Below, piece by piece: positions 1-11,874 of a DNA stretch of 11,874 nucleotides; position 1 is the stretch's first letter; each line of letters begins with the position of its first letter. Made by a program: the position numbers and the translations under genes. The DNA is taken from contig URKR01000044.1 in NCBI GenBank assembly GCA_900548355.1, positions 1-11,874 of the forward strand, written 5' to 3'. The notes under the pieces are model-generated. The model was not told where the DNA came from. It worked only from the letters and a program-made list of their open reading frames with translations, and made no database searches. The DNA is from an uncultured Oscillospiraceae bacterium. GTDB lineage: Bacteria > Bacillota > Clostridia > Oscillospirales > Ruminococcaceae.

Positions 1-3000
1 GCGCCGCAAACGGCCCGGCCTGTGCAGCAGCCCGCGGCCCCCGCACAGGCCGCTCAGCCGGCCCCGCGCCCGGCCGAACAGCCTGCGCCGCCGGCTGCCA
101 CAAGTTCGCTGACAGGGGATACCACCCGTACCTCCATCATCAAAAACTTCCTGCTCAAGATGGCGCCGGGGTCCGGCGCTGCCGGCACCCAGCAGCTCAA
201 TGAAGGCAAGGAACAATTTCAGCAGTTCTTTGGCAAATCGGCGGCCGTTTTGCCGGATGAAAACGGGAAACTGCGCGACCCTTCGCAAAAACGACGCGGC
301 ATCTTCGGCCTGGGTAAGGCGGAAGATACCGGGGAGTTTGTGCCGATCAACGTCTCGCTCGGCGGCCGCCGCGCCGCCGAACCGGCCCCGGAACCCCAAC
401 CCGCGCCGGCGCCCCAGCCCGACCCGGTGCAGGCAGATCCCTTTGCCGATGAGCTGGGAGAAACCCGCACCACCCCGATCCTGACGGATACCCTGGATGG
501 GATCGACGCCACCGGCCCTGCGCGCAAAAAGCCCGGCCTGTTTGGCGGGCTGTTCGGCCGCCGTGCCGCTGCGCCGGCCGCGATGGAGGACGAAGCCGGG
601 GACGATACCTACGCAAGTTTCCACCTGGAAGAAGCGGACACCGGCACGATGCCGCAGATCCCGTTGGAACCCGCGCAGGAAGAACAGGCAAGCAAAACAG
701 TGTACCACTCCAAATACAGCGCGGCCCGCGCCGGCGTGGAGCCGCCCGCGGTTACTTCGCCCAGCATCACGCTGACGGGGCTGCGCGAGGCGCTGCGCGG
801 CAGCCGCCCGGCGCGGGAAGGCGTAACCGGAACGATCTACCGCAAAAAGCGCAATACCGTTGAATTCACGCCCGGTCAGCACAAAAAGCGCAGCCAGGCC
901 CCGGCCGAAGCGGAAAACCGGGCGCCGGAAGTGACCGGGCCGGTGGGGGAACCGGTTATGACCCCCGACGCTTCGGTGCAGCCGCAGACAACCGGATTTA
1001 CGACCGCGTTGGACGGCGCAGCGCAGCCGGCAGCGGAGAACACCCAGGATTTTCTGGCGGCCGCGGCGGAAGCCGCCCGGCCGGCGCCGCAGCCGGAACC
1101 CGAGGAGCCTCCCCGCACCGCCCGCGCGGATACCTTTGAAGAGCTGGATGTGGATAGTGCGGCTTCCCTGACCGGCGAGCTGCATCTGGCCGATCTGGCC
1201 GCCGGCGCAGCGGACCGGGAAACCCCGGCGCACAGCGGCTTTTCGGCCCAGCTGACCCCCGTGCAGGAGGAAGCGGAGGCTGCGCGGCCGGAAACCCCGG
1301 CGCACAGCGGTTTTTCAGCCCAGCTGACCCCGGTGGAACCGGAGGAGGAAACCCCGGCGGAACCGGAACAGCCAAGCGGCTTTGGGGCGGATCTGCCGCT
1401 GAACAACCGCCCGGCGGCCCGGCCGGATACCAGCGATTTTGTGCGAGGCATTGCCGAATCGATCAATGAAGGCACAGCCGATGAACCCGCTCAGGTGGAA
1501 GAACGCTTTGCCAAAGCGGCGGCGGTGCTGACCGAAGAGGAAGCCGAGCCTGCGCAAACCGCACGCCTGCCGCGCGCCAAAAAGCCCCGCCGCCCCGGCA
1601 TCCGGCTCGACGGAGAACCGGCAGATGAAACGGCCGACGGCGCCGAGCCCCCGTTTGAGGAAGACGAAACCCCGGCCCGCCGCCATGAATATGAGCATAC
1701 GGAAGACGCCCCTGCCGTTCGCCGCGAACTGGATACCCAGGTCCTGCTGCTGACGGTGGCTGCGATTGTTTGTGGCGTCGCCGCCCTTGTCATGATCTAC
1801 CTTGGTACCGCCGCCACCGGCGCAGGCCTGCCCATGCCCGCTCCGCTTGACCCGGCGGTGGGGGCCACCCCGCTGCTGGCCACGCTGCTCGTGCTGCTGC
1901 TTGCCAGCGCAGGGTTGTGCTGGCGCACCATGCTGGCCGGCCTGCGCGGCCTTGTCAAGGGCGCCACGGCGGACAGCCTGCCCGCCCTTGCTGCCGTCGG
2001 CGCAGCGGTGCAGCTTATCATGATGCTCATCAACCCCAGCTGGTACCGGGCCGATGAACTTTGCCTGCTGGCCGGCCCGGCGGCGCTGCTGCTGTGCTTC
2101 AATGCGGTCGGCAAACGGCTGGATGCCGTAACCACGCGGGAAAATTTCCGCCTGGTCAGCGCCGGCAACGACCATGCGGTCGCCTACCGGCTCAAGGACG
2201 CCGGCATTCTGCGCGCTGTGACCAAAGGCCTGACGGAATCTCACCCGAACGTACTGGTCAACCGCCCCACCCAGTTGATCAAAGATTTCTTGGGTTCCAG
2301 CGCATCCCGCCGCACATCGGATAAAAACCAGCAGCAGTTTGCACGGCTGGTCGGCGGCGTGGGTCTGGCGGCGCTGCTCTATACCCTGGTCGCCCGCCGG
2401 GACCCCGGCATGGCATTTACGGCGCTGGCTGCCGTGCTCTGCATCGGGGCGCCGCTGGCCGGCACGCTGCTTTCGGCGCTACCTGCGCGGTTCATGCAGC
2501 GCAGCGCAGCCCAGGTCGGCGCGGTCATCCCCGGCTGGCGGGATATTCGCCAGCTCGGCCGCATCAATGTGATCCAGGTCTCTTCACAGGATCTCTTCCC
2601 GAAAGGCTGTGTCAAGCTCTGCGGAATTCGCCCGGTGCAGAAAGAGCATATCGACCTTGCCATTGTCTATGCCGCTTCGCTGTTCAGCCAGGGGGCGCCG
2701 ACCATGCGGGAAGTTTTCCTGAGCATGATCGGTGACAACCGCAAGCTGCTGCGTCAGGTGGATGATTTCCAGACTATCTACGGCAAAGGGTATGTCGGCT
2801 GGATCGGCGGCGAGCGGGTGCTGGCCGGCAACCGCCAGCTTATGCAGCAGTTTGAAATTGAACTGCCCAGCCTGGAATATGAAAAACGGCACACCGTCAA
2901 CCAGCGCCGGGTGATCTACCTGGCGGTGTCCGGCAAGCTGTACAGTATGTTCCTTGTCGCCTATCAGGCGGACCCGGATACGGCCGTCGTGCTGGAAAGC

Positions 3001-3411
3001 CTGCGCCGCACTGGCATGTCGCTGCTGGTGGACGCCGATGATTTTAACTGTGACGAAACCCTGCTGGAAGCCGCTTACAACCTGCCCACCGGCAGCGTGC
3101 GGGTTCTCGATGACAAGGCCCGCCAGGCGCTGGAGCCTGCAGTTGCCTGGCTGCCCGAAAGCGAAGGCAATATGCTGCATCTGGGCAGCTTTGCAAGCTT
3201 TGTCGGCGGGCTGGAAGCCGCGGCCGGCGCGGCCGAAGGCGAGCGCAAAGCCGCAATGGTGCTTTCAGCCTCGGTGCTGCTGTCCTGCGTACTGGCTGTG
3301 GTGATGGTGCTGGCCGGCGGCATTGCGGCGCTGCCGCTGCCCGCCCTTGTGCTGTACCAGGGCGCCTGGGCTGTGCTGGCGCTGATCTTCCCCATGCTGC
3401 AGCGGTATTAA
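1..3411 (+). CDS. Degenerate P1B-type ATPase-like membrane protein with long disordered N-terminus (5' end outside window)
   Basis: The frame is open from the first base, so the true start probably lies upstream; a GTG at 22 is only a possible start. Bases 1 to about 1735 encode Pro/Ala/Glu-rich, probably disordered, sequence with short basic patches. Eight hydrophobic segments follow: four at about 1741-2120, two at about 2347-2495 and two at about 3250-3400. This is the MA, MB, M1-M6 plan of P1B metal ATPases. The soluble loops also align: GERVLAGN (2809-2832) resembles the nucleotide-domain GxxVLVGN motif. Catalytic motifs are lost. The phosphorylation loop DKTGTLT is SSQDLFP (2581-2601), so the acceptor Asp is Ser. 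TGDN reads DADDF (about 3031-3045). The GDGxNDAPAL hinge reads PESEGNMLHLG (3154-3186), and the CPC helix motif is CIGAPL (2440-2457). The fold assignment is by motif alignment. I infer a non-pumping scaffold or sensor; the function is unknown. Confidence 0.85.
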   Translation, partial: APQTARPVQQPAAPAQAAQPAPRPAEQPAPPAATSSLTGDTTRTSIIKNFLLKMAPGSGAAGTQQLNEGKEQFQQFFGKSAAVLPDENGKLRDPSQKRRGIFGLGKAEDTGEFVPINVSLGGRRAAEPAPEPQPAPAPQPDPVQADPFADELGETRTTPILTDTLDGIDATGPARKKPGLFGGLFGRRAAAPAAMEDEAGDDTYASFHLEEADTGTMPQIPLEPAQEEQASKTVYHSKYSAARAGVEPPAVTSPSITLTGLREALRGSRPAREGVTGTIYRKKRNTVEFTPGQHKKRSQAPAEAENRAPEVTGPVGEPVMTPDASVQPQTTGFTTALDGAAQPAAENTQDFLAAAAEAARPAPQPEPEEPPRTARADTFEELDVDSAASLTGELHLADLAAGAADRETPAHSGFSAQLTPVQEEAEAARPETPAHSGFSAQLTPVEPEEETPAEPEQPSGFGADLPLNNRPAARPDTSDFVRGIAESINEGTADEPAQVEERFAKAAAVLTEEEAEPAQTARLPRAKKPRRPGIRLDGEPADETADGAEPPFEEDETPARRHEYEHTEDAPAVRRELDTQVLLLTVAAIVCGVAALVMIYLGTAATGAGLPMPAPLDPAVGATPLLATLLVLLLASAGLCWRTMLAGLRGLVKGATADSLPALAAVGAAVQLIMMLINPSWYRADELCLLAGPAALLLCFNAVGKRLDAVTTRENFRLVSAGNDHAVAYRLKDAGILRAVTKGLTESHPNVLVNRPTQLIKDFLGSSASRRTSDKNQQQFARLVGGVGLAALLYTLVARRDPGMAFTALAAVLCIGAPLAGTLLSALPARFMQRSAAQVGAVIPGWRDIRQLGRINVIQVSSQDLFPKGCVKLCGIRPVQKEHIDLAIVYAASLFSQGAPTMREVFLSMIGDNRKLLRQVDDFQTIYGKGYVGWIGGERVLAGNRQLMQQFEIELPSLEYEKRHTVNQRRVIYLAVSGKLYSMFLVAYQADPDTAVVLESLRRTGMSLLVDADDFNCDETLLEAAYNLPTGSVRVLDDKARQALEPAVAWLPESEGNMLHLGSFASFVGGLEAAAGAAEGERKAAMVLSASVLLSCVLAVVMVLAGGIAALPLPALVLYQGAWAVLALIFPMLQRY
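1219..1335 (+). repeat. Two near-identical 45-bp coding repeats in the disordered region
   Basis: The 15-residue module ETPAHSGFSAQLTPV is encoded at 1219-1263 and again at 1291-1335, a period of 72 bases. The two DNA copies differ only at a few third-codon positions, so the peptide is preserved. A looser third copy (QPSGFGADLPL) follows at about 1369-1401. The repeats could be a linear binding motif used in tandem, or a recent duplication. Confidence 0.85.
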
Positions 3412-3451
3412 CCCGGGGCTGTACGGCGGGGAAGGGGAATTCAAAAAGAAA

Positions 3452-3468
3452 AGGGGAAATCAGGATTG
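3452..3468 (+). promoter_or_regulatory. Ribosome binding site and TTG start of the transposase fragment
   Basis: AGGGG at 3452-3456 lies nine bases before the TTG at 3466-3468. This is the only plausible start that keeps the conserved first residues (YRTSEHQLSIYDYLP). Confidence 0.5.
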
Positions 3469-3930
3469 TACCGCACCAGCGAACACCAGTTGAGCATCTA
3501 TGACTATCTGCCCCCCTACCATGGGGAACTGGCCGGGCAGAACCGTTGGGTACGCCTGGCGGATGCGATCGATTGGGACGCCTTTGAACAGGAATACAGC
3601 GGCCATTTTGGCCGGGCGGGCAAGGTGGCCTTGCCGGCCCGGATGGCGTTCGGCTGCCTGATTATCCGGGCGGCCCTCGGTGTGACCGACCGTGAAACCG
3701 TTGCGCTGATCCGCGAAAGCCCCTACCTGCAATATTTCCTCGGGTTCCAGACCTTTGAAAACGCGGTGCCTTTTTCCCCGCGCAGCATGGAGCGGTTCCG
3801 TGCGCGCATCCCGGCGGCCCGTGTCAAGGAGGCTGTCAAACTGCTGCGCCAGTTTGAATCAGAAGCCGAAGCGTATGGCCGGCAGGCCCGCCGGGTTGGC
3901 CCGCTGGCCGCAGCCGAAACAACCGAATGA
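3466..3930 (+). CDS. Truncated IS1182/IS5-like transposase, N-terminal DUF772-type domain only
   Basis: The 154-residue product matches the N-terminal domain of IS1182/IS5-type transposases. Recognisable stretches are IDWDAFEQEYSGHF (about residues 40-53), a basic helix region ALPARMAFGCLIIRAALGVTDRETV, and the closing signature SPYLQYFLGFQ...PFSPRSMERFRARI. Full-length members are usually about 450 residues or more and carry a DDE nuclease domain. Here the frame stops cleanly soon after the N-terminal domain, and no nuclease remnant is visible in any forward frame downstream. The start is TTG at 3466, chosen because AAGGGG (3451-3456) is suitably placed and no ATG gives the conserved beginning. 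The gene lies 54 bases after the ATPase-like gene with no terminator between. It is either a decayed insertion-sequence fragment or a retained DNA-binding domain; it cannot transpose on its own. Confidence 0.8.
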   Translation: MYRTSEHQLSIYDYLPPYHGELAGQNRWVRLADAIDWDAFEQEYSGHFGRAGKVALPARMAFGCLIIRAALGVTDRETVALIRESPYLQYFLGFQTFENAVPFSPRSMERFRARIPAARVKEAVKLLRQFESEAEAYGRQARRVGPLAAAETTE

Positions 3931-3934
3931 CGCC

Positions 3935-3951
3935 GTTTGCCGGGGGTAAAC
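3935..3951 (+). other. Small stem-loop just after the transposase-fragment stop
   Basis: GTTTGCC (3935-3941) can pair with GGTAAAC (3945-3951) across a GGG loop, with one G-U pair, starting five bases after the TGA. No T-run follows, so it is not a convincing intrinsic terminator. Confidence 0.35.
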
Positions 3952-3987
3952 CCTGGGTGTTTCTGAAAGGATGCTCGACATCGTCCA

Positions 3988-4000
3988 ATTTTGCCAAAAT
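3988..4000. promoter_or_regulatory. Perfect 13-base palindrome, candidate operator
   Basis: ATTTTG and CAAAAT flank a central C. A symmetric AT-rich site upstream of a metal exporter gene could be an operator for a metal-responsive repressor. It is 139 bases from the start codon with no clear promoter beside it, so this is a guess. Confidence 0.25.
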
Positions 4001-4069
4001 GCAGTGCCTGCCCGTGTTAAGGCCTTGGATCCGCTGCTTTTTCGGCGAATTGTCCAGCGTGCTTGAGAG

Positions 4070-4086
4070 GCCAGAAACACTCTGGC
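4070..4086 (+). other. Hairpin in the exporter leader
   Basis: GCCAGA (4070-4075) pairs perfectly with TCTGGC (4081-4086) around an AACAC loop, about 50 bases before the exporter start codon. A short T-run (TTTT at 4097-4100) lies eleven bases away, too far for a typical terminator. Confidence 0.3.
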
Positions 4087-4138
4087 AGCCCCCGGCTTTT
4101 CCGGTCGTCATATTCCACATTTTTCCAAAGGAGCGGAT

Positions 4139-5023
4139 ATGCTGCATCTTGTCGTCCATTCACTTGAACACGCCGTGGAGGACAGCCTTCCCATGCTGCC
4201 CTTCCTTTTTCTTGCATATTTGTTGATCGAATGGCTTGAACGCCACCATGGCGCCCGGATTGAACGGGCGCTGGCCGGGGGCGGGCGCTGGGGCTTTGTG
4301 CCCGGTGCTCTGTTGGGCTGTGTGCCGCAGTGCGGTTTTTCGGCGCTGGCCGCGAACCTTTACGCAAGCCGGGTCATTACGCCGGGAACGCTGCTGGCCG
4401 TTTTTCTGGCTACCAGCGATGAGGCTGTCCCGCTGCTGGCCGCTGCGCCGAAATTCTGGGGCGTGATCCCGGCGCTGCTCATCGGCAAGGTGGCGGCCGG
4501 AATTTTGGGCGGGCTTTTGCTTGATGTACCGCTGCGCAAGGTGCTGCCTGCCGGCCTGTATGGCGGCTACGCCGGCCATGCCGAAGATATCGACTGCCAT
4601 GAGGAACACGAAGAGCACAGCGGGGTGATCGGCGCTGCGCTGCGCCACACGGTTGAAATCTTTTTGTTTATCCTTTTGTTCAGCTTTTTGATCGGTTTTG
4701 TGTTTGAACTGATCGGCGAGGACGCCATCACCGGCTTCCTGCTGGGCATGGGGCCGCTGCAGCCGATGGCGGCTGCGCTGGTTGGGCTGATCCCGAACTG
4801 CGCGTCCAGCGTGCTGCTTGCCCAACTGTATCTGGAGGGCGCGCTCAGCTTCGGCAGCCTGTTCGCCGGCCTCTGTGCCGGGGCGGGCATCGGCCTGGCC
4901 GTTCTCTGGCGGGTAAACCCGAGTTGGAAGCAGAACCTTTTTTTGACCGGCGTGCTCTGGGCAGGCGGGTCGGCCTGCGGCGTGCTGCTGCAGCTCTTGC
5001 CGATCGGCGCCGCGGCCGTGTAA
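4139..5023 (+). CDS. Putative heavy-metal/manganese exporter, ArsP_2-like ten-helix permease
   Basis: This 294-residue integral membrane protein fits the putative 10TM heavy-metal exporter family (ArsP_2, often named putative manganese transporter or arsenic efflux protein). It has two related halves. GCVPQCGFSALAANLYASR (60-78) mirrors GLIPNCASSVLLAQLYLEG (216-234), each with a Pro-x-Cys helix break, as expected for an inverted-repeat transporter. ATSDEAVP (91-98) is a polar helix motif. Between the halves lies a His/Glu-rich loop (residues 147-160, ending CHEEHEEH), a likely metal-binding segment. The ATG is fixed by AAAGGAG at 4127-4133, five bases upstream. A strong hairpin follows the stop. 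The substrate cannot be read from sequence; family annotation points to manganese or other divalent metals, less surely to arsenic compounds. The protein should sit in the cytoplasmic membrane. Confidence 0.85.
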   Translation: MLHLVVHSLEHAVEDSLPMLPFLFLAYLLIEWLERHHGARIERALAGGGRWGFVPGALLGCVPQCGFSALAANLYASRVITPGTLLAVFLATSDEAVPLLAAAPKFWGVIPALLIGKVAAGILGGLLLDVPLRKVLPAGLYGGYAGHAEDIDCHEEHEEHSGVIGAALRHTVEIFLFILLFSFLIGFVFELIGEDAITGFLLGMGPLQPMAAALVGLIPNCASSVLLAQLYLEGALSFGSLFAGLCAGAGIGLAVLWRVNPSWKQNLFLTGVLWAGGSACGVLLQLLPIGAAAV

Positions 5024-5033
5024 AAGCAACGCA

Positions 5034-5081
5034 TACAAAACGAAACAGGGCAGCCCAAGGGCTGCCCTGTTTCGTTTTGTA
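5034..5081. terminator. Perfect 23-bp hairpin, bidirectional terminator
   Basis: Bases 5034-5056 are the exact reverse complement of 5059-5081, with only AA between them. The GC-rich core (AGGGCAGCCC) is flanked by A-rich sequence on the left and T-rich sequence on the right (GTTTCGTTTTGT), so each strand ends its stem with a U-rich tract. It sits 10 bases after the exporter stop and 17 bases after the proA stop on the other strand, as expected for a shared terminator between convergent genes. Confidence 0.92.
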
Positions 5082-5098
5082 CACCTCCAAAGGTGGGG

Positions 5099-6358
5099 TT
5101 AGCGTCGTATCTGCCCGTTGCCGTGCACAATGTATTTGTAACTGCACAGTTCGGCCAGGCCCATGGGGCCGCGGGCATGCAGTTTCTGGGTAGAAATCCC
5201 CATTTCGCAGCCAAGGCCAAACTCTCCGCCGTCGGTAAAACGGGTGGAAGCGTTCACATACACAGCCGCGCTGTCCACACAGGCGGTAAAACGGGCGGCG
5301 GCTGCGCCGTCCTGGGTCAAAATCGCTTCGCTGTGATGGGTCGAATGGGCCGCAATATGGGCCACCGCGGCATCCAGGCTGTCCACCACCGCTACAGCCA
5401 GGGTGTAATCCAAAAACTCGGTATCAAAATCATCCGGCCCAGCGGCTTTGCCCGGAATGATCATGGCGGCGGCTGCGTCCAACCGCAGTTCCACCGGGGT
5501 CAGACCCTCCGCCAGGCGGTCGATGACAAGCGTTTTGTAGAGCAGCGGCAGAAAATCGCCCGCGATATCCCGGTGAACCAGGCAAACCTCGGCAGCGTTG
5601 CAGACACTCGGCCGGCTGGCCTTGGCATTTTCAATGATGTTGGCCGCCATGGCGAGGTCGGCTTCCTTATCCACATAGATATGGCAGATGCCGGTGCCGG
5701 TCTGGATGCAGGGGACTGTTGCATTTTCCACACAGGCGCGAATCAGCCCCGCCCCGCCGCGCGGGATCAGCAGATCCACCAGGCCGTCCGCTGTCATCAG
5801 CTCGTTGGCCGAAGCATGGGTGGTATCCTCCACCAGCGCTACGGCATCGGCCGGCAGGCCCACGGTGGCAAGGCCCTGGCGCAGCGCGGCCACAATGGCG
5901 TGGCAGCTGGCCCAGGCCTCCTTGCCGCAGCGCAGCACGCAGGCGCTGCCGGCCTTCAATGCCAACGCGGCCGCGTCGGAGGTTACGTTCGGGCGGCTTT
6001 CGTAGATAATGGCGATAACCCCCATCGGCACCGTCGTTTTTTCAATCAAAAGACCGTTTGGGCGCACAATTTTGCGCTGTACCTGGCCCACCGGGTCAGG
6101 CAGGGCGGCTACCTCCCGCATGCCTTTTGCCATATCGGCCAGGCGGGTGGGGGTCAGGGCCAGCCGGTCCAGCATTACAGGGCCGATCGTGGCGCGCGCG
6201 GCGTCAAGATCCCGGCGGTTGGCCGCCAGAATTTCCTCCTGCGCAGCCACCAGCGCTTTGGCCATCGCCTCCAGCGCGGCATCCTTGGTATCGCTGTCGG
6301 CCAGCGCCAATGCCAGCCGCGCTGCGCGGGAACGGCACAAAATCTCGTGGGTGGTCAT
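5099..6358 (-). CDS. proA: Gamma-glutamyl phosphate reductase (glutamate-5-semialdehyde dehydrogenase)
   Basis: This 419-residue protein is full length for ProA, the cytoplasmic enzyme that reduces gamma-glutamyl phosphate with NADPH to glutamate-5-semialdehyde in proline synthesis. Family signatures are clear. They include [16 protein letters not shown] (111-126), LIPRGG (198-203), [12 protein letters not shown] (219-230), the catalytic-cysteine segment [10 protein letters not shown] (249-258, Cys253) and the C-terminal [15 protein letters not shown] (387-401). The ATG is supported by AGGAGG at 6365-6370 (complement strand), six bases upstream, behind a TTGACA promoter. The usual partner proB (glutamate 5-kinase) is not in the window: the gene is transcribed alone, divergent from the lipoprotein operon and convergent with the exporter. 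No frameshift or missing active-site residue was seen. Confidence 0.97.
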
Positions 6359-6371
6359 GGTTTACCTCCTG

Positions 6372-6384
6372 CGGGGCGGCCCCG
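6372..6384 (-). other. Small GC hairpin in the proA leader
   Basis: CGGGG and CCCCG flank a three-base loop directly upstream of the proA ribosome site (6365-6370). It may tune translation, but with a 5-bp stem it could be chance in GC-rich DNA. Confidence 0.3.
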
Positions 6385-6400
6385 ACTATACTTTATTAAA

Positions 6401-6429
6401 AGAATACAGCAAGCGGTGCTTTTTGTCAA
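6401..6429 (-). promoter_or_regulatory. Sigma-A promoter of proA
   Basis: On the complement strand, TTGACA (6424-6429) and TATTCT (6401-6406) are separated by 17 bases, a near-consensus housekeeping promoter. Transcription should begin near 6394, giving a leader of roughly 36 bases before the proA ATG. Confidence 0.85.
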
Positions 6430-6459
6430 CCGCAGAACCGTCTTTTCGATACCTTCGGC

Positions 6460-6488
6460 TTGCAATGAAAAGCAAAACAAGGTATAAT
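6460..6488 (+). promoter_or_regulatory. Sigma-A promoter of the lipoprotein operon
   Basis: TTGCAA (6460-6465) and a perfect TATAAT (6483-6488) are separated by 17 bases. The predicted start is near 6495, about 55 bases before the first gene. The -35 boxes of this promoter and the divergent proA promoter are only 30 bases apart, so the two could influence each other. Confidence 0.85.
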
Positions 6489-6532
6489 ATCCCATATATG
6501 CGCCGTGCGGTCGTCCCGGGCGGTGAATACCC

Positions 6533-6553
6533 AAAAGGAGCGTTTGTTTGATG
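6533..6553 (+). promoter_or_regulatory. Ribosome binding site of the lipoprotein gene, two adjacent starts
   Basis: AAAAGGAG (6533-6540) precedes TTG at 6548 (gap of seven) and ATG at 6551 (gap of ten). The spacing slightly favours TTG, the codon favours ATG. The choice changes the product by one residue and does not affect the signal peptide. Confidence 0.6.
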
Positions 6554-7687
6554 AAATCCTTACGAGCTAAATTTCTCAGCCTGGGTATGGCGATGCTGCT
6601 GCTTCTCGCCGCTTCGGGCTGTACGATCACAACCCCCTCGTCTGTTGGCAGCATCGGCGATGTGGAAATCCCGGCCGGTATTTATCTTCTGGCCCAATAC
6701 AACGCGTACAACACAGCTTCCAGCGATGCCGACCTGGCCACCGGTGAAAGCGCCCGCGATGTCAAAGCCGTGCTGCGCGCGGAATGCACCGGCACCATCG
6801 GCGATGAGGAAGTGACCACCGACGGCGCCGACTATATCGCCCAGCTGACGCTGCGCAGCCTTGAATACTATGCCGCCGTGGAAACAATGTTCGACGAACT
6901 GGGCGGCGTGCTGGATGACGCCGCCACCAGCGAAGCGGCCGACACCGCGGCCAGCGTCTGGGAATCGAACGGCGACCTCTACGCAGCCAACGGCATCAGC
7001 CAGGCCACGATTGAGCAGTACCTGCTCAACAACCAGAAGGCCCAGGCCTGCCTCGAACTCCTCTATGGCGAGAACGGCCAGACCCCGGTTACCGAGGCGG
7101 AGTACACCGATTACCTGCAAAATGAGTGCCTGTATATTGACGAGGTACAGCTGCCGTTGTTTGACGCCAACACCTATGCCTTTGCGGATGAGGAGCAGGC
7201 GGCTGAAATCCAGGCTTTGGCCGAGGAATGCGCCGCCACGCTCAATGAATGGGCCACGGCGGAACAGGGCCGTTCAGAGCGCCAGGTGTCGATGATCGAA
7301 GCCGCGAGCGAATACATCCCCCGCACGGGCGAAATCCTCGGCGCGACAATGGAAAGCGCCCAGGCGCTGCAGTATATCAGCAGCCAGCTCATGACGCCGG
7401 ATACCCTGACCTCTTACGGCGATTCGCTGACCGAAGCGGCGGATGCAGCCGGTGAAAATACCTGGTTTACCTATGACACCGGCATGAGCGTTGCGGTTAT
7501 GTGCAGTGTTGACCCGCTGGAAGCCTACAGCCTGCAGGAACTTATTGAAGGGTACGACCTGCTGCGCACGATGAAGGGCACCGAGATGGACAACCAATTC
7601 TACGCCGAAGGCGCCGCGCTTGCCCATAATCTGGACCAAAGCGCGATGAACACCTATAAGCCGGGCAATATCAAGACCGAAGTGTAA
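6551..7687 (+). CDS. Secreted lipoprotein, SurA/PrsA N-terminal-like, no isomerase domain seen
   Basis: The 378-residue product starts with a lipoprotein signal: a basic tip (KSLRAK), a hydrophobic stretch (residues 9-20) and the lipobox AASGC with Cys24, so it should be lipid-anchored outside the membrane. The mature part is acidic and mostly alpha-helical. Features such as IPAGIYLLAQYNAYNTA (about 37-53), a run of helices with DLYAANGISQATIEQYL, and YGENGQTPVTEAEYTDYL resemble the N-terminal chaperone domain of SurA/PrsA foldases. I see no parvulin (PPIC) motif, so it is probably a chaperone-like or surface protein, not an active prolyl isomerase. It is the first gene of a three-gene operon behind a strong promoter; the next gene, also exported, starts 44 bases later and could be a client. 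The SurA link is a moderate-confidence resemblance; an uncharacterised lipoprotein is the alternative. Confidence 0.8.
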   Translation: MKSLRAKFLSLGMAMLLLLAASGCTITTPSSVGSIGDVEIPAGIYLLAQYNAYNTASSDADLATGESARDVKAVLRAECTGTIGDEEVTTDGADYIAQLTLRSLEYYAAVETMFDELGGVLDDAATSEAADTAASVWESNGDLYAANGISQATIEQYLLNNQKAQACLELLYGENGQTPVTEAEYTDYLQNECLYIDEVQLPLFDANTYAFADEEQAAEIQALAEECAATLNEWATAEQGRSERQVSMIEAASEYIPRTGEILGATMESAQALQYISSQLMTPDTLTSYGDSLTEAADAAGENTWFTYDTGMSVAVMCSVDPLEAYSLQELIEGYDLLRTMKGTEMDNQFYAEGAALAHNLDQSAMNTYKPGNIKTEV

Positions 7688-7692
7688 GCTTT

Positions 7693-7708
7693 TGCGGCAT
7701 CCGCCGCA
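7693..7708 (+). other. Small hairpin between first and second operon genes
   Basis: TGCGGC (7693-7698) pairs with GCCGCA (7703-7708) around an ATCC loop, six bases after the lipoprotein stop and just before the next ribosome site. There is no T-run, so read-through is expected. It may protect the upstream message or set relative expression. Confidence 0.45.
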
Positions 7709-7731
7709 GGAAGTGTAAAGGAGGGGTTCGC

Positions 7732-9582
7732 ATGAACTGGAAACTCCGTTTGACATCGCTGGCGCTGGCCGCCGGCCTGTTCTGCGCCGCACCGGCCCCC
7801 GCCCTGGCCGCAGCCACGGCCGGCGGGCAGAGCTGGGTGGAAGAATTGATGGAGCTGCCGGTGGTGGGGGATCTGCTGCGGTTGTTCAGTGGCAAAGCAA
7901 CCGATGAAACGGCCACAGCGGAAACTGCGACCGATGAAACCGCAACAGACGAAACCGCAGCGACCCCGGCGCCGACACAAACCCCGGCGCCTACCCAGGC
8001 GCCGGCCAGCGAGCCGCAGCCCTGGGCGGCTGCCTGGATGGCGGGGGCGGTGCAGCCCGGCGTTCAGATGCCGCAGGGCAGCACCGAAGCGGGCGACCCG
8101 GCTTTGAGCGCCCAGCAGTGGGGCAGCTTGGAACTTTCAAGCGGCGCGGTGCTGCAGCTGACCAGCCGTGAGGAGACAAACCTTGGCAGCCTGGCGGCGG
8201 ATGCCGCCGCCCAGGCGGCCGCGGCCTGGCTGTGGACCGATGCCAACCAGGACGAAACCCTGTGCAGCCAGCCTGTTATTGCGATGCTGCCGGGTGCGGC
8301 GTTCACCGGCAATGCGCCGGCAGGTACCGCTCTTTCGGCCCTGACCGCCAACCTTGCCGACCCGGACGCGGCGCTTTCGATGGTGGCCGTGACGCCGCGC
8401 AAGCTGACCGAAATCCTCAACCTGAGTTTTGTCGGAATGCTGGAAGCCGACACCGCCGATTCGGGTTACGGCAATTTCCCGCAGCTCAGCGGCCTGCGGG
8501 TACTTTACCGCACAACCGATGAAGCCCGCCAGGTAGAATCGCTCTGGCTGCCCAGCACAACCGAACCCGAAGGGCAGCCGCTGGATCAGAATGATGAGCA
8601 GACAACCCTGCTGCTTGTGCTGCCGGCTTCCCAGCGAACCCTGTATGGGCTGGACGATGCGGCCGGCTACACCGACCTGCTTGCGGAAGCCGGCCTGACG
8701 ATGGGGGGCGCCCTGACTGCGCTGCCCCGGAACCTGGACGCGGCTACGCTGGCAACGCTGCTGGCGCGCAGCGGCAGTACCGGGCGGATCCTGCCGGCTA
8801 CGGCGGTTTCGTTTACGGGGGTTGTCCAGCTCGGGGCGGAATACGCCAACCAGCAGGTCAGCTATTTGATCGACGGCGCCGCCGCTACGGGTGTGACCGA
8901 TGCCTCCGGCGCGCTGGCGCTGCCCGGCCTGGCGGCCGGCAGCCACAGCTTCCAGATGGCGGCAGGCGAGCCGGTCTATTACCTCAGCAATCTGACCTTT
9001 ATCGGCACGGATGACGCGGCCTCAACCCCGGTGCAGATTGCCAATGTGCCGGCAGAGTGCCTGCTTGGCCCGGCGCCGACTGCAACCCCGGCGCCTTCGG
9101 CCACGCCCACCGCAACGCCGGCGCCTTCGGCCACCCCTGCCGCAACGGCGACGTCAACCCCGGTCACCGTCACCAATGAGGGCCACCCCGATATCGCGGA
9201 TGCCATTGCGGACGGTACCTGGGGCGCAGCCCCCACGGCCACCCCGGCCCCCGAGGCGCCGGCCCCCACCGCTGCGCCGACCCCGACACAGGCAAGCCGC
9301 AGCACCCCGGCCCCGGTGCATGACCCCACGGCCGGTTTGCTGACCACCACCCCGGCCCCCACCCTGGAACCGACCCCGAGCCCGACAGCGAGCCCGGAAC
9401 CCACTGTGAGCCCGGAAGAGGAAGCCCGGCGCGAAGAAACCCAGAAAACCTCCAGCCAGCTGCCGCTGTACATCGGGCTGTTTGTGGCGGCTGTCTGCAT
9501 CGCCGCGGTGGTGGCGGTGCTTGTGCGCCGCAAGATGGGCATGGGCGGTGAAAACGGCACTACCTATCGCCGCCGCAAATAA
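7732..9582 (+). CDS. Membrane-anchored surface protein with an orphan 5'-nucleotidase C-terminal domain
   Basis: This 616-residue protein begins at an ATG behind AAAGGAGG (7717-7724). A signal peptide spans residues 1-26, with a cleavage site after ALA. A TDETA/TPAPTQ linker covers 58-92. Residues about 137-300 match the 5'-nucleotidase C-terminal domain: REETNLGSLAADA (146-158), APAGTALSALTANL (195-208) and GYGNFPQLSGLRVLY (245-259) follow the usual order. The metallophosphoesterase half that normally precedes it is absent, and no metal-binding motifs were found. Residues about 358-430 look like a small beta-sandwich with a DASGALALPGLAAGSH signature. A Pro/Thr/Ala stalk (446-562) leads to one transmembrane helix (579-598) and a basic tail. 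No LPxTG motif is present, so it is held in the membrane, not sortase-linked. I infer ligand binding or adhesion; nucleotide hydrolysis is unlikely. Confidence 0.85.
   Translation: MNWKLRLTSLALAAGLFCAAPAPALAAATAGGQSWVEELMELPVVGDLLRLFSGKATDETATAETATDETATDETAATPAPTQTPAPTQAPASEPQPWAAAWMAGAVQPGVQMPQGSTEAGDPALSAQQWGSLELSSGAVLQLTSREETNLGSLAADAAAQAAAAWLWTDANQDETLCSQPVIAMLPGAAFTGNAPAGTALSALTANLADPDAALSMVAVTPRKLTEILNLSFVGMLEADTADSGYGNFPQLSGLRVLYRTTDEARQVESLWLPSTTEPEGQPLDQNDEQTTLLLVLPASQRTLYGLDDAAGYTDLLAEAGLTMGGALTALPRNLDAATLATLLARSGSTGRILPATAVSFTGVVQLGAEYANQQVSYLIDGAAATGVTDASGALALPGLAAGSHSFQMAAGEPVYYLSNLTFIGTDDAASTPVQIANVPAECLLGPAPTATPAPSATPTATPAPSATPAATATSTPVTVTNEGHPDIADAIADGTWGAAPTATPAPEAPAPTAAPTPTQASRSTPAPVHDPTAGLLTTTPAPTLEPTPSPTASPEPTVSPEEEARREETQKTSSQLPLYIGLFVAAVCIAAVVAVLVRRKMGMGGENGTTYRRRK
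9082..9141 (+). repeat. Two tandem 30-bp repeats in the stalk region
   Basis: Two adjacent 30-bp units (9082-9111 and 9112-9141) encode ATPAPSATPT and ATPAPSATPA. They differ at only a few bases and are likely to vary in number by slippage. The rest of the stalk is a looser version of the same Pro/Thr/Ala pattern. Confidence 0.85.
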
Positions 9583-9600
9583 CCAAACCGTTGCACCCTG

Positions 9601-9614
9601 AAAGGAGACCCATG
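9601..9614 (+). promoter_or_regulatory. Ribosome binding site fixing the yitT-like start
   Basis: AAAGGAG (9601-9607) lies four bases before the ATG at 9612. It supports this start over an upstream in-frame TTG at 9591, which would add seven residues unlike the family and has no ribosome site. Confidence 0.8.
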
Positions 9615-10481
9615 ACCGACAATCGCCTGAAAAATCTTGCCCTGGAAGTGTTGGGCTGCTTTATCTCTGCCCTGGGTACCTACAGCTTTGCGGTGGTGGC
9701 CCAGGTACCGGTTACCGGTGTGGCCGGCATCGGCGCGATCCTGTATCACCTGTGGGGGCTGCCGATCGGTATGACCAACATCCTGCTCAACATCCCGATT
9801 GTGCTGGTTTGCTTCCGGCTGCTTGGGCGGGGGTTCTTCCTGCGCAGTGTACGCTGCATGGTACTGTTCGCCTTCTTTACCGACTTCGTGCTCCCGGCCC
9901 TGCCGGTGTACAGCGGCGACCGGCTGTTGGCGGCTGTCTGCGGCGGCGTAGTGATGGGAATCGGCGATGCGCTGATTTATATGCAGAATTCCAGCACCGG
10001 CGGCCTGGACTTTGTTACCATGGCGATCAAGGTCAAGCACCCACACATGCCGTTCGGCAATCTGACCTTCGGCGCCGCCATGGCGGTAATCATTGCCAAC
10101 GGGCTGGTTTTCCGGGATGTGGATGCGATTATCTACGGCATTCTGCTCAACTTCCTGGCTTCTACCGTCATCAACAAAATGATGTTTGGCTTCAATTCCT
10201 GTATGCTGGCCATGATTGTGACCGAAGATGGCCCGGCTGTCTGTGCAGCGATTGACGAAGCGGTTGACCGCGGGTCTACCATCCTCAAGGCTTACGGCGG
10301 CTACAAACAGGAACGCCGGGATGTGGTGCTCTGCGCCTGCAGCAGCAAACAACTCTATGAGATCGAAAAGCTGGTCAAACGGATGGACCCGGCGAGCTTT
10401 ACGATTATGCTGCAAGCCAATGAGGTACAGGGCGAAGGATTCCGCCGGCTTGTACTGGGTAAGGGCGAGGAGAAAAAATAG
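9612..10481 (+). CDS. YitT family membrane protein (UPF0750; DUF161 plus DUF2179)
   Basis: The 289-residue product has the two-part architecture of the YitT family. About five hydrophobic segments occupy residues 10-200 and contain the family signature around NSSTGGLDFVTMAIK (126-140). A cytoplasmic DUF2179 domain follows (about 205-282), with GSTILKAYGGY (221-231) and MLQANEVQGEGF (266-277). YitT-like proteins are common in Firmicutes; their transport substrate or role is not established. It starts 29 bases after the surface-protein stop and is very likely co-transcribed as the last operon gene. A hairpin begins nine bases after its stop. The usual DUF2179 pattern is intact, with no sign of decay. 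A link to the two exported proteins upstream is suggested only by operon position. Confidence 0.93.
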   Translation: MTDNRLKNLALEVLGCFISALGTYSFAVVAQVPVTGVAGIGAILYHLWGLPIGMTNILLNIPIVLVCFRLLGRGFFLRSVRCMVLFAFFTDFVLPALPVYSGDRLLAAVCGGVVMGIGDALIYMQNSSTGGLDFVTMAIKVKHPHMPFGNLTFGAAMAVIIANGLVFRDVDAIIYGILLNFLASTVINKMMFGFNSCMLAMIVTEDGPAVCAAIDEAVDRGSTILKAYGGYKQERRDVVLCACSSKQLYEIEKLVKRMDPASFTIMLQANEVQGEGFRRLVLGKGEEKK

Positions 10482-10489
10482 AAAAAGCG

Positions 10490-10531
10490 CAGCGCCTGCG
10501 GCAAAAGGGGACCCCCCGGCCGCAGGCGCTG
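10490..10531. terminator. GC-rich hairpin between convergent genes
   Basis: The arms at 10490-10502 and 10519-10531 pair perfectly over 13 bp (core GCGCCTGCGGC), with a 16-base loop whose GGGG and CCCC can also pair. Reading leftward, the stem is followed by CTTTTTC and then a second T-run, a good terminator for the glycosyltransferase gene, which stops five bases away. Reading rightward, the tail (GTTGCTTATT) is weaker but may still end the yitT-like transcript. Confidence 0.85.
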
Positions 10532-10535
10532 TTGC

Positions 10536-11525
10536 TTATTGGATTTTCAGCGCGCGCTGCACACGGTAGACGGCGTACTGGAACAGCCCCGCCACCAGGC
10601 TTGCTTCCACCCAGATATAGTTGGGCAGGTTGCGCAGGTAGAATTTGGGTTTGCGGATCTTGGGCAGCGCCGCGCATGCTTCGGCAAAACCTTTGGCATA
10701 GTCACTGCCAAAGCCGCGCAGCCGGAACATCACAACCTTCAGCAAATATCCGGCAAGGAGCGGCAGAAAATTCAAAACCAGCATGGCAAGCGGCATATTT
10801 TTATACGGCAGCAGAATGCTGTTGCGCCCGCTCTGGATGCTTTTGAAAGGGTTGTAGCGCACGGCGCCGGTTGTGGCGCCGCAGATATGGCGGCAGCGCG
10901 CGGTGGGGCAGTAGACATTTTTATACCCGTAACTGTTGGCCCGCCAGCTTAGGTCAACATCCTCATAATAGGCGAAAAACAGTTCATCAAACACGCCGAT
11001 CTCATCCAGGATGCTTTTGCGGTAAAGCGCCGCCCCGCCGCAGGCCGAAAAAACCCGGCAGGGCTTCTGGTAGCGGCTGGCCTTGAGCCCATCGCCCCGC
11101 TTGCAGGCGAAGCCGAGCAGCGTGACATAGTCGCCGGCGTCGTCGGCCAGTTCGGGTTCGTAATAGCGCAGCATCAGGCTGCTCACCGCAAAAATGCGCG
11201 GGTCCGCTTCGGCTGTGCGCAGCAGTTCGGCCAGCCAGGTGGGTTCGGCAAACGCATCGTTGTTAAACAGCGCCATATATTCGCCCTTGGCGATCGCGAT
11301 GCCCTGGTTGACCGCGTGGGAAAAGCCGGTGTTGCAGTCGTTTTCAATCAGGGTGTAGCGCGCACGGCCAATATAGCTGCGCGCGATGGCAAGGCTTTCG
11401 TCGGTGGAGCCGTTGTCTATGACGATGAGTTCAAAATCCTGCTCAGTCTGCGCCCAGATCGATTCAATCGAATCCCGCAGCCAGCCGGCCCCGTTCAGAT
11501 TCGGGATAATCACGCTCGCTTTCAT
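10536..11525 (-). CDS. Family 2 glycosyltransferase, WbbL/rhamnosyltransferase type
   Basis: This 329-residue protein has a GT-A fold N-terminal domain. It starts with KASVIIPNLNGAGWLRDSI (2-20), then VIDNGSTDES (35-44) at the nucleotide-sugar site, and FNNDAF (87-92) where the DxD-type metal site lies. CGGAALYRKSIL (162-173) and FAYYEDVDLSWR (184-195) are typical of WbbL-like rhamnosyltransferases, the latter carrying the likely catalytic acidic residues. The C-terminal part (about 240-268 and 305-320) is hydrophobic and basic, suggesting membrane association. The ATG at 11525 is supported by GGGGAGG (11532-11538, complement), six bases upstream; reading further upstream gives no glycosyltransferase sequence. 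It overlaps the preceding gene by ATGA. It probably adds a sugar to a cell-wall or surface polysaccharide; donor and acceptor are unknown. Confidence 0.93.
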   Translation of the reverse strand: MKASVIIPNLNGAGWLRDSIESIWAQTEQDFELIVIDNGSTDESLAIARSYIGRARYTLIENDCNTGFSHAVNQGIAIAKGEYMALFNNDAFAEPTWLAELLRTAEADPRIFAVSSLMLRYYEPELADDAGDYVTLLGFACKRGDGLKASRYQKPCRVFSACGGAALYRKSILDEIGVFDELFFAYYEDVDLSWRANSYGYKNVYCPTARCRHICGATTGAVRYNPFKSIQSGRNSILLPYKNMPLAMLVLNFLPLLAGYLLKVVMFRLRGFGSDYAKGFAEACAALPKIRKPKFYLRNLPNYIWVEASLVAGLFQYAVYRVQRALKIQ

Positions 11526-11874
11526 AAAAAACCTCCCCACCGGTCTGACAGCAGCGGCAAAATGCCGGTTAGCTGCCAGAACGGCAACACAGTCAAACCC
11601 AGCGCCAACACAAGCAACAGCGCCGACAGGATCACCTGCCGCAGCAAATACGCCCGGGCCAGCCGGCGCCGCGCCGGGTTTTTGGCGCTGCAGCTCCAAA
11701 CCAGCATGGCGATCAGCCCTGCGACCGGCACAAAGAACAGGCAGAGCACCGCAAAATACCCCGCCGTTGAAAGCCCGCCCGGTTCCTGCGGCTGTGCGGC
11801 ATAGCGCGGGGGCGGCGGGGCGGCGCTGTGCGGCGCGGCCTGGCTGCGGGAAGCGGCTGGCGCCGGGGCCGGCG
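11522..11874 (-). CDS. Small membrane protein with Pro/Ala-rich N-terminus and two helices (5' end outside window)
   Basis: The frame is open to the window end on the complement strand, so the N-terminus is missing. The visible 117 residues begin with a Pro/Ala/Ser-rich stretch (PAPAPAASRSQAAPHAA...), followed by two transmembrane segments. The first is AGYFAVLCLFFVPVAGLIAMLVW. A basic linker (KNPARRRLARAYLLRQ) and a second helix (VILSALLLVLALGLTVLPFW) follow, then a short tail. The pattern matches a common Firmicutes group of small proteins with an N-terminal zinc ribbon or disordered linker and the GYF...VPVAGLI helix plus RRxLARA linker; whether a zinc ribbon exists here lies outside the window. 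An internal GTG at 11749 is a less likely start because the Pro-rich part upstream is coding-like. The stop overlaps the glycosyltransferase ATG (ATGA), indicating translational coupling. Its function is unknown. Confidence 0.8.
   Translation of the reverse strand, partial: PAPAPAASRSQAAPHSAAPPPPRYAAQPQEPGGLSTAGYFAVLCLFFVPVAGLIAMLVWSCSAKNPARRRLARAYLLRQVILSALLLVLALGLTVLPFWQLTGILPLLSDRWGGFL

Follow-up and report, generated by a model that had tools for sequence, protein, structure and literature searches.

What does a membrane protein do that has kept the fold of a metal-pumping P1B-type ATPase and lost the residues of the pump cycle? The question is raised by a gene, here called the pseudo-P1B-ATPase gene, at the start of an 11,874-nt stretch of DNA from an uncultured Oscillospiraceae bacterium (assembly GCA_900548355.1, contig URKR01000044.1, positions 1 to 11,874 of the forward strand), the whole of which is referred to as the window. 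An initial annotation, made from the letters of the window, had proposed a stable pseudo-ATPase. The encoded protein has a P1B fold without the residues for phosphorylation, dephosphorylation, the hinge, metal binding and binding of the ATP phosphates, yet it is conserved and open in frame. It is part of one family that is near-universal in a bacterial order and, by the matches scored, single-copy in most genomes, and its role is probably that of a non-enzymatic membrane scaffold or sensor.

A P1B-ATPase fold without its catalytic motifs

The open reading frame (ORF) occupies positions 1..3411 of the forward (+) strand, which carries all the features described below, and comprises 1136 codons with its 5′ end open at the window edge. 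A database entry of 1273 aa (P0001) is identical to the window protein across the searched residues 560–1136 and near-identical before them, so the complete window protein is probably about 1273 aa long as well, and the window probably misses the first ~137 codons. A Pro/Ala/Glu-rich N-terminal region, the tether (1..1698), is followed by a P1B-ATPase-fold membrane domain of 570 residues (1699..3408), within which all residues are numbered here (Asp92, for example, corresponds to nt 1972). The P1B-like feature first drawn at 1735..3411 is confirmed as such a domain, but it starts nearer 1699 than 1735.

Sequence comparison places the homology of this domain to P1B pumps beyond chance. A search with the single sequence matches PDB 3rfu at an E value of 3.6e-11, one with the family profile at 2.8e-26, and among NCBIfam models the window protein matches CopA (E 2.6e-9) and TIGR01525 (E 1.8e-8), both far short of the curated cut-offs. 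A Pfam scan of the window protein returns no family, and none passes the threshold in the other members scanned; two NCBIfam matches, to NF050099 (E 0.014) and NF050101 (E 0.063; SepX/GlpR), were dismissed as low-complexity. The AlphaFold2 model of the domain (pLDDT 92, pTM 0.84) reproduces the eight-helix layout that had been read from the sequence and superposes on P1B copper pumps (Foldseek, VIA), and the P-type fold with its phosphorylation (P), nucleotide (N) and actuator (A) domains is present. The first transmembrane helix (TM1; model residues 4–39) lies at 1708..1815, the kinked TM2 (56–84) at 1864..1950, TM3, which starts right after Asp92, at 1975..2031, and TM4, which contains Gly138, at 2071..2157; the A-domain remnant (2158..2313) is followed by TM5 (2314..2394) and TM6 (2404..2514), and TM7 (3190..3315) and TM8 (3337..3399) close the domain.

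Both the best sequence match, by family profile, and the best fold match are the P1B-1 copper-exporting ATPases (CopA; Legionella CopA, PDB 3rfu/4bbj), with which the window protein has in common the eight membrane helices, the P- and N-domain folds, membrane residues Asp92 and Gly138, and the Gly-x-Gly and Gly-Asn of the N-domain. Unlike CopA, it lacks the phosphorylated Asp, TGE, the Thr-Gly of TGD, GDGxND, CPC, the N-domain Glu and the His-Pro motif, its actuator is halved, and in place of an N-terminal metal-binding domain, for which Pfam gives no match, the family carries a helix and tether. The zinc/cadmium P1B-2 ATPases (ZntA; PDB 4umv, 7qbz) match more weakly than CopA (E 1.7e-5 and 5.5e-6), the catalytic losses being identical, while KdpB, MgtA and other P-type ATPases are clearly weaker matches whose shared catalytic motifs are absent. 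By descent and fold the protein belongs to the P-type superfamily, but in its function-defining features it stands outside the P1B pumps.

These losses were read column by column against 23 intact P1B ATPases, with family rows numbering 42 (the family-level set) or 83. The sequence SSQDLFP stands at the DKTGT site (2581..2601), as the initial annotation had stated: the phosphorylated Asp, found in 23/23 pumps, is Ser295, and the pump columns Gly and Thr of the motif are Asp298 and Leu299. The N-domain Glu of all 23 pumps is Phe329 (mostly Leu, Val or Ile across the family), and their N-domain His is Pro334 (mostly Ser, Gly or Asp), so that the His-Pro motif is lost. The proposed disappearance of TGD, GDGxND and CPC holds, apart from one Asp: GDGxND is absent, with Ser-Glu-Gly-Asn-Met-Leu at its site (3160..3177) and GDGxxD in 0/334 database homologues within the matched domain, CPC has become Gly-Ala-Pro in TM6 (2446–2454), and at the hinge Ala-Asp-Asp replaces Thr-Gly-Asp (3034..3042), whose Asp, Asp448, is kept in 40/42 members. 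One relative, L052 (8301–10313), keeps TGD in place at its hinge with the other catalytic motifs lost. At the CPC column the Pro is kept in 81/83 rows, a Cys stands directly before it in 3/83 and directly after it in 0/83.

The actuator loss and that of the His-Pro motif had been overlooked. The stretch between helices 4 and 5 measures 63–64 residues in 42/42 members of the family-level set, which does not include L068–L087 (63 in the window protein), versus 128–129 in 23/23 pumps. The deletion takes away about half of the actuator domain, and the pump TGE aligns to a gap in the window protein in 22/23 rows and to unrelated letters in one. Other positions are kept as in P1B pumps, including Gly81, Asp92 (common to 20/23 pumps), Gly138 (23/23) and Pro252 of the membrane domain.

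Distribution and selection

Relatives at E 1e-12 or better are present in 283/297 genomes of the family and in 269 of these 283 as one match, at most four candidates per genome being scored; intact pumps scored 7.8e-8 or worse in four test genomes. A profile search of the order finds matches at E 1.4e-46 or better in 108/117 genomes, most of them across the whole domain, plus one fragmented match; pump-type partial matches begin near 1e-30. Motifs were read in 20 of the 108, and most of the others rest on score. We take the 'order' and 'family' of these genome groups to be Oscillospirales and Ruminococcaceae, and genus-named database entries include Faecalibacterium, Gemmiger, Anaerotruncus and Ruthenibacterium. 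A class sample of 196 genomes holds seven full matches, all in the order set, three genomes with pump-type partial matches only and 186 with none at E 1e-30; a phylum sample of 199 holds two, again in the order set, three pump-type partial matches and 194 genomes with none at E 1e-35. Both samples include few genomes of the order, and the genomes with no full match need not all lie outside it.

Throughout this distribution the phosphorylation motif is missing. DKTGT occurs in none of the 86 locus members that cover the site (the best match in each of 87 fetched loci, L027 falling short of it), and DKTG in none of the matched domains of 334 database homologues; L052 holds DKTG elsewhere in its domain, by chance. 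A tree of 54 pseudo-ATPase rows (10 of 64 omitted) and 23 intact rows has one branch parting the two sets, with support of 100 by SH-aLRT, the only support measure used.

The frame is kept across the order, and the ratio of non-synonymous to synonymous substitution rates (dN/dS, Nei–Gojobori) is 0.086–0.25 for 18 of the 25 lowest-dS pairs and 0.18–0.39 in pairs that include the window gene, values in which dS may be understated as the genes are GC-rich. These ratios indicate purifying selection on the gene and agree with the earlier argument that an open frame speaks against decay. Fold, family-wide motif loss and kept frame together support the stable pseudo-ATPase of the initial annotation. 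Since the predicted model is P-type-like and DKTGT is absent from every homologue examined, close or distant, neither a structure unlike a P-type ATPase nor relatives with an intact motif, the two findings that would speak against it, came to light; at the hinge, whose conservation had also been queried, Thr-Gly is lost across the family with the exception of L052.

The N-domain, the tethered helix and rlmB

Conservation within the family is highest in the N-domain (2641..2970), where 28/110 positions reach at least 80% identity, compared with 8/41 and 6/73 in the two halves of the P-domain, 4/48 in the A remnant and 4/90, 9/65, 3/70 and 2/73 in the membrane segments. The near-intact motif GERVLAGN lies at 2809–2832 and keeps Gly377-Asn378 (2827–2832); Gly364 and Gly377 are invariant (83/83 each), Gly362, encoded with Gly364 at 2782–2790, is kept in 63/83 and Asn378 in 66/83. 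Four residues (Trp368, Arg373, Pro390 and Glu395) show conservation among family members but not in the 23 pumps, and Tyr422, present in 35/42 members, replaces an Asp invariant among those pumps.

The second conserved element is an N-terminal helix, itself upstream of the window edge. Of the distant members, most begin with the motif YNVDDILxEIKxKK, carried on a disordered tether; the helix is predicted (pLDDT blocks 67 and 85), and the tether-equivalent region is predicted to be disordered in the distant member P0287. VDDILxE[ILVF] lies within the first 45 residues of 100/114 proteins longer than 700 aa with an initial Met (120 listed, six left out), and a relaxed form in 107/114, versus 0/114 in each of two controls. 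Gemmiger-type proteins carry a looser form twice near their start, in 111 and 113 of 117, a count made with no shuffle control. A DNA search of eight genomes gives seven matches in six genomes, six of them in the pseudo-ATPase gene by position, and one match for the reversed control pattern; the seventh, a second copy in genome G008, adjoins a run of N and is apparently a duplicate made in assembly.

The third is the upstream neighbour. In 80/82 loci with enough sequence (24/24, 39/40 and 17/18) the 23S rRNA methyltransferase gene rlmB precedes the pseudo-ATPase gene on the same strand by at most 400 bp, mostly with gaps below 70 bp; one copy matches the SpoU methylase family of Pfam at E 5.5e-34, and the count for L048 relies on an adjacent rlmB whose ORF spans a run of N. 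The two exceptions also have rlmB just upstream, and it is the called gene start that is off: in L032 rlmB ends 637 bp before that start, and in L087 the called start is over-long, overlaps rlmB by 201 bp and led to rlmB being assigned to the wrong side. The window begins inside the pseudo-ATPase gene, leaving its own rlmB out of view.

No other neighbour is fixed. An EF-G-like gene follows in 20/40 family and 4/19 order loci, ORFs that are presumably DnaX-, YebC- or Lon-like follow in some loci and other genes elsewhere; the downstream genes thus vary, and a fixed downstream partner was rejected. In 7/40 family loci spoIIE is located upstream in the same orientation. Gemmiger and Faecalibacterium are not known to sporulate and also hold the pseudo-ATPase gene, and a role in sporulation only was therefore set aside. 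A small ORF of about 87–94 aa with a likely membrane segment is found 5′ of rlmB on the same strand in some loci (L058:5856–6137, L040:6726–6986 and others); it has no significant Pfam family and is too sporadic to use (14 loci by clustering, 4/40 by direct search).

Other genes of the window are recorded here as separate observations. The ORF at 3466–3930 encodes a stand-alone N-terminal part of an IS5-type transposase (DUF772). Such a gene, of about 130–170 aa, lies 7–78 bp 3′ of the pseudo-ATPase gene in 27/27 Gemmiger-type loci (L001–L027; overlapping in L020 and L024), with a dN/dS of 0.00–0.30 for the twelve closest pairs and a median across 283 pairs of 0.34. The gap between the window copy and the gene that follows is only 208 bp, too little for a catalytic domain, and the gene looks like a domesticated transposase fragment. 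Further downstream, 4139–5023 encodes an arsenic-efflux-like membrane protein of the ArsP_2 family (NF037962; PF11449), and 7732–9582 a probably secreted protein with a long Thr/Pro/Ala-rich stretch, a likely C-terminal membrane anchor and a weak 5′-nucleotidase C-terminal match under the Pfam cut-off.

Scaffold, sensor or something else

From what is known of P-type ATPases, a protein that forms no phosphoenzyme, undergoes no dephosphorylation and has no metal site would be incapable of the pump cycle and would work as a non-enzymatic membrane protein. The reading we favour, as the probable one, is that the conserved N-domain face binds a ligand or protein partner, that a cytosolic partner is recruited by the N-terminal helix at the end of its long, disordered tether, and that the whole protein would then act as a membrane scaffold or sensor; if, as is putative, it is co-expressed with rlmB, a housekeeping function close to translation or the maturation of ribosomes is suggested, not the export of metal. 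Function is here inferred: scaffold, sensor and partner all fit, and none of the three is proven. Several observations weigh against this reading. An Asp occupies the phosphorylation column in 10/83 aligned rows, though with none of the remaining motif; the N-domain glycines that are kept leave weak nucleotide binding possible; dN/dS is 0.30–0.60 in the other seven of the 25 smallest-dS pairs; the ORF of one clade (L075, L076 and L085) is only 544–548 aa long and has no N-terminal extension, so the tether is not essential everywhere; and co-transcription with rlmB is putative, an operon being in any case no proof of shared function.

The best-surviving alternative, possible and partly compatible with the scaffold-or-sensor reading, is a nucleotide sensor, in which the N-domain would still bind ATP, ADP or another nucleotide by means of its retained glycines and signal through the membrane domain without hydrolysis. 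The invariance of Gly364 and Gly377 and the frequency of Asn378 argue for it, and in a study of HMA6 (PMC5089723) three conserved glycines line the nucleotide pocket, a Glu contacts the adenine and a His the phosphates. The glycines have the same spacing in the family, a mapping of HMA6 contacts that is our own; however, the Glu and His are precisely the residues replaced, and the kept glycines may equally be structural.

Less probable is a de-energized transporter or channel, whose eight-helix domain would pass an ion or small molecule without ATP. All eight helices are retained together with Gly81, Asp92, Gly138 and Pro252, and the family has polar residues of its own in Gln105 (TM3) and Asn135 (TM4), but CPC, the metal site, is gone, and conservation is lower in the membrane segments than in the N-domain, a pattern one would not expect of a selective pore. 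Slightly further down the scale, the protein might regulate an active P1B pump of its own cell, for instance as an inactive hetero-partner. Of 30 genomes tested, 28 also encode a heavy-metal ATPase that is intact and passes the TIGR01525 cut-off (the other two, both probably drafts, hold only below-cut-off P-type matches in G394 and only fragments in G327), and an intact pump adjoins the pseudo-ATPase gene in L045; however, 13/14 control genomes also pass the cut-off, so co-occurrence says little, and an intact pump is found in only 3/67 scanned loci, against the near-constant adjacency of rlmB. A recent mutant or decaying gene, for which nothing speaks beyond the missing motifs themselves, is ruled out by the family distribution, the absence of the motif from every covering locus member and database homologue, the open frame and the low dN/dS of most closest pairs.

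A narrower version of the scaffold-or-sensor reading, which we put forward only tentatively, makes the N-domain the functional centre of a membrane module that senses a ligand or partner, with the tethered helix leading to a cytosolic machine and the pairing with rlmB tying it, in Oscillospirales, to the maturation of ribosomes. Kinases and other enzyme classes have well-known pseudoenzymes; for a conserved P-type pseudo-ATPase family, no account was found in searches of open-access paper listings. Database names, where given, are mostly 'hypothetical protein', and the names that one source gives to P0226 (cation-translocating P-type ATPase) and P0251 (cation transport ATPase) are misleading. 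Two direct handles on function are offered by rlmB, as the fixed neighbour, and by the conserved helix at the N-terminus, and the retention of the gene next to one and the same ribosome-modifying gene by nearly all sampled members of an order of gut bacteria points to a non-enzymatic job.

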